Source: Thermosipho sp. (in: thermotogales)
GTDB taxonomy: Bacteria > Thermotogota > Thermotogae > Thermotogales > Fervidobacteriaceae
Reading direction: 5' to 3'
DNA: 64,000 bases
Assembly: GCA_017656345.1 (NCBI GenBank)
Contig: JACDNZ010000001.1
Location: 62,001 to 126,000, forward strand
The position numbers were made by a program, and so were the translations under genes. Below are positions 53,147 to 58,319 of this stretch, piece by piece; position 1 is the stretch's first letter, and the number at the start of each line of letters is the position of its first letter. Under the pieces are notes generated by a model. The model searched no databases, was not told the DNA's origin, and saw nothing but the letters and a program-made list of their open reading frames with translations.

Positions 53147-54123
53147 GATTTGGAATCCTTGGAGCTGGTAGTTGGGGAATAGCATTTGGAAATTTGTTGG
53201 TTGAAAATAATCAGGAAGTTTTAATTTGGGGTCGAAGAAAGGAATATGTTGAAAGAGTAAATAAAAATAAAGTTACACCATATTTAGCTGGAGTATCGGT
53301 TAAGCCAAAACTTACACATGAAATTTATGAACTGGTTAATTTTGCTGAAATATTGGTTATAGCTGTTCCGGTTCAATACATAAGAAACGTATTGGAAGAG
53401 GTAAGCAATGTCAATGATAAAAAGATTACCTTAATTTTGAATTTATCAAAAGGGCTGGAAATAAGTTCTTTCAAACGGGTATCAGAAATAGTTGGCGAGT
53501 ATTTTGAAAATACGACTTATGCAGTATTATCTGGACCTTCACATGCTGAAGAAGTAGCCAGAAAAATTCCAACGGCTGTAACTATTGCTGGCGGGGAATA
53601 TGATTTATTGCAAAGATTAATTAGTAATGAATATTTTAGAGTTTATACTTCAGTTGATGTTGTAGGAGTTGAAATAGCTGGAGCTTTGAAAAATGTTATG
53701 GCAATTGCTGCAGGAATACTTGATGGATTAGGTGGTTGGGATAATTCTAAAGCAGCTTTAATGACTAGAGCTTTATTTGAAATGATTAAGTTTGGAAAAT
53801 TTTTTGGTGCCAAAAGGGAAACTTTTTTTGGTCTAGCTGGTATGGGGGATCTCATGGTTACATGTAACAGTCGTCACAGTAGAAATAGAAAGCTTGGTGA
53901 ACTAATTGCAAAAGGTCAAACATTGACTGAGATATTAAATGGTACCTCAATGGTGGCGGAAGGTATGTATACGGTTAAAGCTGTTTATAATTTTTGTAAA
54001 TTGCATAATATTGATATGCCAATTTCTAAGGAAGTTTATGAAATTTTGTATTGTGGTAAGGATCCAAAATTATCAATGATTGAATTAATGAGTAGACCTT
54101 TAAAAGAAGAGTGGTATATATGA
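53143..54123 (+). CDS. gpsA: glycerol-3-phosphate dehydrogenase [NAD(P)+]
   Basis: Makes sn-glycerol 3-phosphate for lipids. 326 residues: FGILGAGSWGIAFGNLLVEN at the N-terminus, SGPSHAEEVARKIPTAV near 135, catalytic Lys in GALKNVMAIAAGILDGLG near 190, GLAGMGDLMVTC near 235. The TTG at 53143 overlaps the trmB stop (TTGA) and follows GGAGGTG by 5 bases. Ends ATGA-overlapped with the mrpE-like gene. Confidence 0.95.
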   Translation: MRFGILGAGSWGIAFGNLLVENNQEVLIWGRRKEYVERVNKNKVTPYLAGVSVKPKLTHEIYELVNFAEILVIAVPVQYIRNVLEEVSNVNDKKITLILNLSKGLEISSFKRVSEIVGEYFENTTYAVLSGPSHAEEVARKIPTAVTIAGGEYDLLQRLISNEYFRVYTSVDVVGVEIAGALKNVMAIAAGILDGLGGWDNSKAALMTRALFEMIKFGKFFGAKRETFFGLAGMGDLMVTCNSRHSRNRKLGELIAKGQTLTEILNGTSMVAEGMYTVKAVYNFCKLHNIDMPISKEVYEILYCGKDPKLSMIELMSRPLKEEWYI

Positions 54124-54470
54124 TTGGGTTATTTGTAAATTTATTAATTGGCTTTGTGTTTCTTCAAGTTTTTTTCGATTTTAATAATATTATAATTAGT
54201 CTAATTGTGGCATTTTTAGCTTGGGCAATATTGTATCCTGGAAAGTTTAACTTTTCTTTGCTCGTATTTGATGCTTTGAAAAAGATACCACGTGTTATCT
54301 TTGAAGGAATTATTATTTTATTTTCAAAACGTGAGTTAGTTGAGTCTGAGAAATATAAAGATAATTTTGAAATATTACGTAAAATAATTAATATTACTTT
54401 AACCCCAAAAACAATTGTATTCGAGCATGATGATGATTTTATTTACATACATAAATTAGATAGGGAATGA
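54120..54470 (+). CDS. MrpE/MnhE-like small membrane protein
   Basis: 116 residues; two hydrophobic N-terminal helices (about 3-20 and 24-40). The stretch NITLTPKTIVFEHDDDFIYIHKLD near residue 90 is the MrpE signature. Shorter than standard MrpE (~160). ATG at 54120 overlaps the gpsA stop. First of four consecutive Mrp/Mbh-type genes; MrpA, B, C and D are not present. Confidence 0.82.
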   Translation: MIGLFVNLLIGFVFLQVFFDFNNIIISLIVAFLAWAILYPGKFNFSLLVFDALKKIPRVIFEGIIILFSKRELVESEKYKDNFEILRKIINITLTPKTIVFEHDDDFIYIHKLDRE

Positions 54471-54475
54471 TAAAT

Positions 54476-54727
54476 ATGGTGGCAATTTTTGGGATTTTGT
54501 TGTCAGTTATTTTTGCAATTTATTTTACAATAAAAGGTAAGAATATATTTGAAAAATTGATTCCACTTCTTTCGATTTCAACGAAAATATCATTGTTGAT
54601 AATTGTATTTTCGTTTGTTTATGACTTACCTTTTATGTTTGAGTTAGGTATATTTTATCTACTCATTTCAATTGGTGGAGCTTTTATCATTTCATCGTTT
54701 ATCTCACGGAGTGATTTTTATGATTAA
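54476..54727 (+). CDS. MrpF-like small membrane protein
   Basis: 83 residues, three hydrophobic helices, typical size and layout for MrpF. The ATG at 54476 follows AGGGA by 9 bases; a second ATG 9 bases upstream is too close. Sequence match is mostly by hydrophobicity and position between E and G, so moderately sure. Ends overlapping the mrpG-like gene. Confidence 0.72.
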   Translation: MVAIFGILLSVIFAIYFTIKGKNIFEKLIPLLSISTKISLLIIVFSFVYDLPFMFELGIFYLLISIGGAFIISSFISRSDFYD

Positions 54728-55004
54728 AATTATTCAAATTTTTTTGTTGGTTATTGGAGCTACATATATGGTAATTGGAAATTATTTAGCTTTAAGGTCG
54801 AAAAGTATTTTGAATAAAATTCACTATTTAAGTGCTGCGGATACGATTGGAGGAATCTTTATATTGGTTTCAATACTACTTTCAAAAGAATATTTTTTCA
54901 AAGCACTTATTGCTTTGATAATTTTATTAATTGGTTCTCCATCGATTACTTATTTTGTCGCTAATGCTTTATCAAAAAGGGGTAAGAAAATTGGTGGTTA
55001 TTAG
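54720..55004 (+). CDS. MrpG-like small membrane protein
   Basis: 94 residues, three helices. NKIHYLSAADTIGGIFILVS near residue 35 and LLIGSPSITYFVANALSKRG near 68 match MrpG. ATG at 54720 follows GGAGTGATTTTT and overlaps the mrpF-like gene. Its end overlaps the following fusion gene. Confidence 0.8.
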   Translation: MIKIIQIFLLVIGATYMVIGNYLALRSKSILNKIHYLSAADTIGGIFILVSILLSKEYFFKALIALIILLIGSPSITYFVANALSKRGKKIGGY

Positions 55005-55650
55005 ATCTGTGTTTTTAATTTTAATGATTTCAATCACATTATTTGCGATATTTTCGCGCAAACCATTCAATTCATTCATTTTTAGAACAATCTTGAGTAT
55101 ATTGGCTGTTGGCTTGTATGTATTGTATTTTGCTCCTGATGTAGCATTAGCAGAAGCAATGTTAGGTGCTTTACTTACTACTTTTATATATCTTCTTGCT
55201 TTTAAAATACATTCTGAAATCAAAGTAGGTATTGTAAAAATGCCTGTTATTTGTGAAAAATATCAGGAAAATTTTAAAGGAATTATTCCTGAGATATTGA
55301 ATGAATTTGCAAGAAAAAGGAATTATAAAGTTCATTTTATTGAAGTAAGTGATTTGAATAAGATTAAAATGTTGCTAATAAATTCTGAAATTGATATTGG
55401 AATATGTTACGACGGTGATTTTGAAATTCTTGAAGTACCTGTGTATTTGTTTGAAAATAGTGAAAAAAATTATTTTGAAATTCATGAGTTATTGGAACTT
55501 AACAAGAAGATCACTGAATTAAAAAAAGTGAAAAATGTAAAAATTTCATTGTGTTTCTCAGATAAAAATTCGATTTTATTTGAAGAATTTTCAGAATTTT
55601 ATTCACAAGAAAAAATTGAAAATATAGTGAAAAAATATATAAGGAGGTAG
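54991..55650 (+). CDS. DUF4040/MbhD-like membrane protein fused to solute-binding-like domain
   Basis: 219 residues. The N-terminal ~75 have three helices and LYFAPDVALAEAMLGALLTT near 45-64, the signature of DUF4040/MbhD (and MrpB-type) subunits. The C-terminal ~140 residues are soluble and read KVGIVKMPVI, FKGIIPEILNEFARKRNY, KVHFIEVSDLNKIKMLLI then NSEIDIGI, which strongly resembles the first lobe of family 3 solute-binding proteins. I know no standard subunit with this fusion. TTG at 54991 follows AAGGGG by 8 bases; GTG 54994 is also possible. Confidence 0.7.
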   Translation: MVVIRSVFLILMISITLFAIFSRKPFNSFIFRTILSILAVGLYVLYFAPDVALAEAMLGALLTTFIYLLAFKIHSEIKVGIVKMPVICEKYQENFKGIIPEILNEFARKRNYKVHFIEVSDLNKIKMLLINSEIDIGICYDGDFEILEVPVYLFENSEKNYFEIHELLELNKKITELKKVKNVKISLCFSDKNSILFEEFSEFYSQEKIENIVKKYIRR

Positions 55651-56749: not shown

Positions 56750-57241
56750 ATGGAAGTTGGATATAAATTATCTTCAGCAGAAAGAAAGTATTTGCTTATA
56801 ACGTATTTAACACTTAACGAGATGGGTTGGACCCGTCTAAAAAAGATATCGGATTTTGCAAGTGTGAAAATGCCATCAGCAAAACAGTCTCTTGACTCTT
56901 TGGCTAAAAAAGGTTTGATTTATTATGAAAGAAGAGGAGCTATTACATTAACAAAAGAAGGAAAAATAATTGCAATAAGAGAGAATGAGAATATTCAAGC
57001 TGTAAAAAAGTTCTTTACTGAAGTTTTACTTCTTTCACCTGAAAAAGCAAATGAAGCTTGTTGGAAAATCTATTTTGATATGGATGAAGAAATTTTAGAG
57101 AAATTTGTTTTGTTTGCTAAATTTTTGAACCAATCACCAATTGAAAAACCATTGTTTATTGCACATTTTAAAGAATTTGTTAAAAATGGGAAGGTAGTTT
57201 CTGAATGTCCTTACATTAAAAAGGGACAGGGAGGAAAATAA
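56750..57241 (+). CDS. DtxR/MntR-like regulator with lost metal-binding residues
   Basis: 163 residues with the DtxR plan: N-terminal winged helix (about 12-75), then a dimerisation domain (ENIQAVKKFFTEVLLL, EKANEACWKIYFDMDEEILEKF). DtxR uses His79, Glu83, His98, Cys102, Glu105 and His106 for metals; by alignment only the Cys (Cys104 here) is retained and the others are Asn, Val/Lys, Asn, Ile and Tyr. A C-terminal Cys occurs in SECPYIKKG. ATG at 56750 follows AGGAGGT. Starts a plus-strand run; no iron or manganese transporters nearby. Not likely to sense metals in the DtxR manner. Confidence 0.75.
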   Translation: MEVGYKLSSAERKYLLITYLTLNEMGWTRLKKISDFASVKMPSAKQSLDSLAKKGLIYYERRGAITLTKEGKIIAIRENENIQAVKKFFTEVLLLSPEKANEACWKIYFDMDEEILEKFVLFAKFLNQSPIEKPLFIAHFKEFVKNGKVVSECPYIKKGQGGK

Positions 57242-57243
57242 CT

Positions 57244-57474
57244 GTGGAATTGGATGTCTTATTGAAAATTGAAAAGGAAAAGGTACATTTGTTGAGTTAT
57301 ATTTTAGAAGCAGAAGATAATCTTTTAAATATTAGAAAATATGAGGGGGGGATTTTGAGAGTCATTGTTCCAGAAAAGCTGTTGGATGATGCTCTAAAAC
57401 TTATTAATAGTTTAAAGTCTGAAATTGGTTTTGAAATTGTTGAAATTCGTAAAAATTCGGGAAGTGCTGATTGA
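57244..57474 (+). CDS. DUF4911-type small protein
   Basis: 76 residues with an alpha/beta pattern (ELDVLLKIEKEKVHLLSYIL, EGGILRVIVPEKLLDDALKL). Matches the DUF4911 style of small proteins in anaerobes; function unknown. GTG at 57244 follows GGGAGGAAAATAA, 2 bases after the DtxR-like stop. Overlaps the metallophosphoesterase start by one base. Confidence 0.75.
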   Translation: MELDVLLKIEKEKVHLLSYILEAEDNLLNIRKYEGGILRVIVPEKLLDDALKLINSLKSEIGFEIVEIRKNSGSAD

Positions 57475-58319
57475 TGAAAAAGATAGTTAGTTTGTTATTG
57501 GTAATTCTATCGCTATTTTTATTTTCAAATACTGTTTTCATGAAAGTTGAAAATGAGATAGTTGTGAAGAATTATGAGAAAAATTTTGAGTTTAAGTTCC
57601 CTGAAGAAACTCAAAATTTTTTTGTTGCAGTATATGGAGATAGTAGATGGGGAAATAGAATTCACAAAAAAATTGTTCAAAAGATACAGGAGTATTCTCC
57701 CTTGGCAGTTGTACATTTGGGGGATATGGTAAATAGAGGGGATGTCTTTGATGAATGGCAAACATTTTTTGAAATTACGGAACCTTTGAGACAGATTTCA
57801 TATTTCCAGGTTGTAAAAGGAAATCATGAAAAACCTGACATATATTTTAGAAAGTATTTTGGAGTTTATAATTATTATTCTGATTTTGGGGATTGGAGAT
57901 TTATTTATCTGGATTTAGAAACTGGAATTGAAAAAGCAATTAGTTTTTTGAATCAATATCACAATTCTAAAACGATTGTTTTTATGCATTTTCCCGTATT
58001 TACAGTGGGACCGTATTGCGAAAATAAATTTGTATTGTCATTAAAAAAATTACATGAAGTTTTTAAAAATAACAATATTAAGTTAGTTTTTTCAGCACAC
58101 GAACACAATTATCAAAGGTTTTTTGTGGATGGAGTTGTGTATGTTATTTCAGGAGGAGCGGGAGCATTTTTGTATGGGAAGAAATGTGAAAATGAACATT
58201 TGATTAAGTTTTGTAAAGAACATAATTTTGTAATACTTCATTTCGTAGAAAATAAAATTGACATAAAAGCATTTTCTGAAACTGGAGAGTTGTTAGATGA
58301 ATTTATAGTAAGTTATTAA
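57474..58319 (+). CDS. exported metallophosphoesterase
   Basis: 281 residues, N-terminal signal sequence (about 3-18). Calcineurin-type motifs: VYGDSRWGNRI, VVHLGDMVNRGDV, KGNHEKP, FMHFPVF and SAHEHNYQRFF, all present. Resembles purple-acid-phosphatase-like bacterial enzymes; substrate unknown. ATG at 57474 overlaps the preceding TGA (TGATG). The next gene starts 14 bases on, so an operon with the unknown membrane protein. Confidence 0.88.
   Translation: MKKIVSLLLVILSLFLFSNTVFMKVENEIVVKNYEKNFEFKFPEETQNFFVAVYGDSRWGNRIHKKIVQKIQEYSPLAVVHLGDMVNRGDVFDEWQTFFEITEPLRQISYFQVVKGNHEKPDIYFRKYFGVYNYYSDFGDWRFIYLDLETGIEKAISFLNQYHNSKTIVFMHFPVFTVGPYCENKFVLSLKKLHEVFKNNNIKLVFSAHEHNYQRFFVDGVVYVISGGAGAFLYGKKCENEHLIKFCKEHNFVILHFVENKIDIKAFSETGELLDEFIVSY

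Follow-up and report, generated by a model that had tools for sequence, protein, structure and literature searches.

A single-antiporter Mrp gene set dispersed over three loci in Thermosipho, with half a solute-binding protein fused to its MbhD-type subunit

Mrp antiporters are close relatives of the membrane arm of complex I, and their regulation is poorly known. The window analyzed here, a stretch of 64,000 nucleotides from a 2.1 Mb draft genome (88 contigs) of Thermosipho or a close relative, carries four overlapping open reading frames on the plus strand at 54120-55650, directly after gpsA and followed by an M42 peptidase gene. An earlier note on this DNA had read them as an orphan, possibly reduced set of MrpE, MrpF, MrpG and a DUF4040/MbhD-like subunit, the last of which is fused to an additional domain. 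The locus raises two questions: where the remaining subunits of such a machine are encoded, if they are encoded at all, and what a domain resembling a solute-binding protein does on a membrane subunit of an antiporter.

Four subunit genes and their partners at two other loci

The proposed identities of the four small genes were confirmed by their reading frames, by Pfam and NCBIfam searches, and by alignments. The features are as follows:

54120..54470, plus strand: MrpE-like subunit, 116 aa (PF01899, E 0.018; TIGR00942, E 0.0025)
54467..54727, plus strand: MrpF-like subunit, 86 aa (NCBIfam PRK08381, E 7e-7, below cut-off; alignment)
54720..55004, plus strand: MrpG-like subunit, 94 aa (PF03334, E 4e-12, over cut-off)
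54991..55650, plus strand: MrpA-C/MbhD-type subunit with a domain derived from a solute-binding protein (SBP), 219 aa (PF13244, PRK07377, AF2 model)
55018..55206, plus strand: MbhD/DUF4040 domain of the 219-aa protein with three TM helices (PF13244 at residues 10-72, E 2e-13, over cut-off)
55216..55647, plus strand: C-terminal domain of the same protein, lobe 1 of a family 3 SBP (N- and C-terminal segments both present) without lobe 2

The ATG of the first gene (54120-54470) overlaps the stop codon of gpsA (ATGA). Its product matches MrpE only marginally in a single-sequence search (E 0.0025-0.018 in Pfam and NCBIfam), and the identity is backed by the conserved position of the gene and by alignment with the E genes of intact operons. 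MrpF, also weak in the single-sequence search, aligns with F of the intact operons. The 219-aa protein, called A' in the following, starts at a TTG codon with GGGG upstream; a mechanical reading of the frame from 54931 gives 239 aa. It matches PRK07377 with an E-value of 2e-12 and 47 bits and is a relative of this family rather than an equivalog member, since the equivalog cut-off of NCBIfam is 149 bits.

Further genes were recorded on either side. A TrmB-type tRNA methyltransferase (PF02390; 52187-53146) has a C-terminal extension of about 115 residues past the Pfam domain. A small DtxR-like (iron-dependent repressor) regulator, which stays below Pfam cut-offs, is encoded at 56750-57241, with genes for a DUF4911 protein (57244-57474) and a metallophosphoesterase (57471-58319) after it.

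As had been noted before, no MrpA, MrpB, MrpC or MrpD gene is adjacent to the four genes. The missing subunits were found in whole-genome searches for PF00361, PF04039 and PF00420. Exactly three Proton_antipo_M genes (PF00361) exist in the genome: two lie on contig C4, and the third, on contig C16, encodes an MrpD (E 7e-21) accompanied by an MrpC gene. Contig C19 carries the second MrpB of the genome, which has an MbhE-type N-terminal part. B, C, E, F and G are all present across the loci, with E, F and G in the window, C on C16 and B on C19. No MrpA with a NuoL-like N-terminal half goes with the set, as the other two Proton_antipo_M genes belong to the cluster on C4; hence, the layout is that of the MrpA-less group 3 and not that of groups 1 or 2. 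In a tree of MrpD proteins, which has several long branches, the C16 protein falls inside the clade of the Thermotogota operons (99/91) and both C4 antiporters fall outside.

In those other Thermotogota, the same genes form one operon with the order C-D-E-F-G-A'-B, in which A' is the MbhD fusion. The operon read in detail (L048) is bounded by unrelated genes.

In a comparison of 61 related genomes, the occurrence of the fusion matches that of the C16-type MrpD and the C19-type MrpB. Within the family of the window (f1), nine genomes (G000-G003, G006, G007, G010, G012 and G014) possess each of the three unlinked loci, and in the other 11 all three are absent or represented only by C4-type homologs, a pattern whose statistical weight is smaller than the genome count because the co-loss in the other genera may amount to one or two events, maybe predating the split. 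G006 and G010 are single-contig genomes, and their three loci are separated by hundreds of kb; the dispersal is thus not an assembly break of the 88-contig draft. The neighborhoods pfk-MrpD-(comB)-MrpC and HTH gene-MrpB are identical in all nine genomes; lgt directly follows MrpB in genus g1 and lies slightly further on elsewhere. Based on the single-contig dispersal and the conserved neighborhoods, we conclude that the split is old and real. In genus g1 and in G006, mrpD and mrpC are separated by a ComB-like gene (region L039:4986-7272, minus strand), presumably 2-phosphosulfolactate phosphatase-like; in genus g5, the two are adjacent without such a gene.

Gene identities, dispersal and co-occurrence are thereby shown by computation, and the labels "orphan" and "reduced" have to be dropped: the partners C, D and B belong to the same lineage, lie at two other loci and occur together with the genes of the window. 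The alternative offered in the earlier note, a module of an antiporter-like machine encoded elsewhere, is supported by the partners on C16 and C19; the genome search for MrpA/D-like subunits suggested there led to the MrpD of C16. We consider it probable, with good confidence, that the four genes make up one third (E-F-G-A') of a complete, dispersed single-antiporter Mrp exchanger (cyanobacterial "group 3"), whose A' subunit bears an SBP-derived cytoplasmic clamp or regulatory domain. Such an exchanger would comprise C, D, E, F, G, A' and B from three loci, assembled into one complex. Protons would pass through MrpD from C16, and the cation route would be built by A' from the window, B from C19, C from C16, and F and G. 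Presumably, the complex would exchange cytoplasmic Na+ (or K+) against protons and would not rely on the redox-driven Mbs/Mbh-type complex encoded on C4.

Origin, distribution and predicted membrane side of the fused domain

The last approximately 144 residues of A' match family 3 SBPs in a sequence profile and in a confident AlphaFold model. For the window protein alone, the match to PF00497 (SBP_bac_3) is weak (E 0.037). Among 24 Thermotogota orthologs, the MbhD match is present in every one and the PF00497 match in 23, at best with an E-value of 1.2e-9. A profile of the C-terminal domain found family 3 SBPs in the PDB (E 1.8e-7) in two segments: profile positions 1-70 correspond to the start of the SBP chain and 107-149 to its end, and the roughly 110 chain residues skipped in between are lobe 2. 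AlphaFold (AF2) predicted three TM helices followed by an alpha/beta domain for the whole protein (pLDDT 88.8), and the C-terminal domain alone was modeled with a pLDDT of 91.2 and a pTM of 0.83. When both models were used in Foldseek, SBP-fold proteins ranked top with query TM-scores of about 0.6-0.75, including SBPs as well as SBP-type sensor or enzyme domains (GluR0, BvgS VFT, MltF). A chance resemblance is ruled out by the 23 ortholog matches, the PDB profile search and Foldseek. Thus, the suspected membership in the SBP family was borne out by the profile matches, and the structure prediction recommended as a check returned the SBP fold.

Two lobes enclosing a ligand in a cleft are not present, as lobe 2 is missing in both the profile alignment and the Foldseek matches. 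Ligand carboxylates are bound in family 3 SBPs by a [TS]x[ED]R motif that follows the third strand. This motif is absent in 23 of the 24 orthologs, the window protein included, and the single match may be due to chance. Where the domain begins, Thermotogota share a Glu that hardly varies (E89) and a Gly that never does (G97).

The fusion is kept not only in the Thermotogota orthologs: a scan of a genome collection detected it in several further phyla, namely Cyanobacteria, Synergistota, Kiritimatiellota (Pontiella) and Thermodesulfobacteriota (Desulfoferrobacter), nearly always within C-D-(D)-E-F-G-A'-B clusters. A' of the window has the group 3 architecture of MbhD plus SBP-derived domain, with its B gene at another locus. 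The cyanobacterial and the Thermotogota C-terminal domains are homologous according to hhalign (96% probability, E 1e-9), and the cyanobacterial profile finds periplasmic binding proteins weakly (best E 0.0025). In NCBIfam, related proteins are filed as PRK07377, "hypothetical protein"; three of 14 control genomes, Synechococcus elongatus included, match this model at all, and one does so over the cut-off. Given this relationship, the fusion is not unique. The earlier statement that no standard subunit with such a fusion was known is only half right: in Thermotogota and Cyanobacteria, the C-D-E-F-G-A'-B Mrp clusters regularly carry this protein as their MrpA-C subunit. A cluster with the same gene order, mrpCD1D2EFGAB of Aphanothece halophytica, has been reported to be a Na+/H+ antiporter, in a review whose consulted part groups Mrp clusters by gene order and does not mention the fused domain (PMC5703873). 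In the literature searched, no description of the half-SBP domain was found.

The distribution of charges indicates on which side of the membrane the domain may lie. On average, loop 1 contains 2.6 and the flank after TM3 2.9 Lys and Arg residues, compared to 0.04 in loop 2, which carries one acidic residue; by the positive-inside rule, this predicts a cytoplasmic C-terminal domain. The MBS complex has a peripheral arm that also lies in the cytoplasm. In MBS, the C-terminal extension of MbsD contacts the peripheral arm of the neighboring complex and helps to hold the dimer (PMC7684303). From the charges and these contacts we infer a cytoplasmic clamp or lid, its exact role being the least certain step of the proposal. 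The domain of A', a lobe 1 that lost its lobe 2 and would sit beside the antiporter at the cytoplasmic face, would most likely act as an assembly or dimerization clamp or as a regulatory lid over the cation entry, and not as a receptor for an external solute. Gating by a ligand, which had been proposed as a possibility, is unlikely in the classical sense, and by an external solute in particular, because lobe 2 and the arginine motif are gone and the domain is predicted on the cytoplasmic side. Regulation by some cytoplasmic ligand is possible.

This leads to a tentative reading, compatible with the dispersed exchanger, in which the half-SBP is a genuine sensor that binds a cytoplasmic small molecule or ion and gates the antiporter, either by itself or as a dimer whose other copy would take the place of lobe 2. 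It would agree with the retention of the lobe 1 fold across several phyla, with E89 and G97 at the domain start, and with dimer contacts already made by the C-terminal tails of MbsD (PMC7684303). However, half of the usual pocket is absent, the arginine motif is missing in nearly all orthologs, and the cyanobacterial version is reduced still further. More speculative is the idea that an SBP lobe was captured once, turned cytoplasmic and was kept in Thermotogota, Cyanobacteria, Synergistota, Kiritimatiellota and Thermodesulfobacteriota as a gating or dimerization domain, a half-receptor completed by its twin in the dimer. If true, the complex I/Mrp superfamily would have a regulatory element that is so far undescribed.

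Ion-path residues and the state of the proposed exchanger

Acids of the cation path are in place in A' and B. The key Glu of A', E55 in the motif APDVALAEA, is at least 90% conserved in the 24 orthologs and invariant in the 30 rows of alignment A3; it probably corresponds to the conserved E58 of MbsD (PMC7684303). MrpB from C19 has D54/E58 in its MbhE-type part, aligned with MbsE. Of the proton-path residues in MrpD from C16, GluTMH5, LysTMH7 and LysTMH12 are present and LysTMH8 is Gln, which rules out that all catalytic Mrp residues are intact. In the split-operon family, this position is Gln in eight of nine genomes and Tyr in the remaining one (L039:5992-7272 and orthologs), and Lys is kept in nearly all cyanobacterial and Thermotoga-type MrpD orthologs. 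Because LysTMH8 is replaced, proton transfer may be altered or lost. In addition, MrpF of the window lacks the canonical Asp (D35), a residue thought to lie on the cation path, and carries the signature S-x-S-T-K, which takes the place of the Asp in most rows of the C-D-E-F-G-A'-B clade, cyanobacteria included. In view of both changes, the exchanger may treat ions or protons differently or have decayed in part.

Decay in the strict sense would mean that the proteins are made while the complex no longer moves protons efficiently. The loss of LysTMH8 to Gln or Tyr, the broken-up operon and the 11 relatives without the set fit such a course. Yet the reading frames are all intact in the nine genomes with the set, the start-stop overlaps in the window and the gene neighborhoods are conserved, and the other key acids and lysines are kept. 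Decay therefore appears improbable to us.

On contig C4, an Mbs/Mbh-type cluster carries its own E, F, G, D, B and C genes together with redox subunits; no redox subunits were found near the window genes or the loci on C16 and C19. The C4 cluster (G000:C4, L006:643-11611, minus strand) contains E, F, G, D, MbhE-B, C, two antiporter subunits, NADHdh, Oxidored_q6, Complex1_30kDa and 49kDa. Behind them lie genes for an NfnB-like flavoprotein that has Fe-S domains and for a rubrerythrin-like protein. The E-F-G-A' genes might be a relict or accessory set that docks on this respiratory complex and replaces or regulates its E-F-G-D. A suitable partner would exist, with a full E-F-G-D-B-C-H-H' set plus Complex1_49kDa, 30kDa, Oxidored_q6 and NADHdh-like subunits, but its E, F, G and D are already complete. 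Moreover, the related genera g2 and g3 have only a C4-type DUF4040 and MnhB match and no fusion set; the latter is therefore dispensable for the C4-type complex. As the fusion set co-occurs with the genes on C16 and C19 and the MrpD tree separates both lineages, we regard docking as very improbable. Least credible is an extracytoplasmic domain by which an external solute gates the antiporter: ordinary SBPs and SBP-type sensor domains do lie outside the cytoplasm, but the charges place loop 1 and the C-terminal flank inside, the homologous MbsD C-terminus reaches the peripheral arm in the MBS structure paper, and lobe 2 is missing.

With the dispersed exchanger, the puzzle of the orphan genes has an ordinary solution in the dispersal of an operon. 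The feature that stays of interest is the half-SBP domain of the single-antiporter Mrp family, which is conserved, apparently undescribed, and predicted at the cytoplasmic face. Since it also occurs in cyanobacterial Mrp clusters, it offers a concrete regulatory or assembly element which is testable in such tractable organisms as Synechocystis or Anabaena. As the spread over three loci suggests, a complex-I-like membrane module can persist for a long time without an operon, and partners of "orphan" Mrp genes should be sought elsewhere in a genome before such genes are called reduced.

Comparison with known systems

With family 3 SBPs (PF00497; GlnPQ SBD2, BvgS VFT, MltF), the fused domain shares the lobe 1 fold made of the N- and C-terminal segments. 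Unlike these proteins, it has neither lobe 2 nor the ligand Arg motif, is predicted to be cytoplasmic, and is joined to an antiporter subunit.

The Bacillus-type group 1 MrpABCDEFG complexes (7QRU, 6Z16) have homologous B, C, D, E, F and G subunits, a homologous C-terminal domain of MrpA, and most proton and cation path residues in common with the dispersed set. In contrast to them, the set lacks the NuoL-like N-terminal half of MrpA and the Asp of MrpF, and possesses an extra domain, predicted to be cytoplasmic.

The membrane arm of MBH and MBS from Pyrococcus furiosus (6CFW, 6U8Y) resembles the dispersed set in three respects: the MbhD-type subunit is separate from the antiporter subunit, an MbhE-type segment is fused to MrpB, and MbsD has a C-terminal extension on the side of the peripheral arm. 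However, the dispersed set comes without genes for a redox arm, and the extension of MbsD is a short Trp-rich tail instead of the SBP domain found in A'.

Cyanobacterial group 3 Mrp (e.g., mrpCD1D2EFGAB of Aphanothece halophytica) shares the gene order C-D-(D)-E-F-G-A'-B around the fusion, the combination of MbhD with a homologous C-terminal domain, and the S-x-S-T-K signature of MrpF. Compared to Thermotogota, its C-terminal domain is shorter and more degenerate, usually without the last SBP helix. Several cyanobacterial clusters carry a second MrpD gene, whereas the Thermosipho set has a single MrpD, with LysTMH8 replaced, and is spread over three loci.
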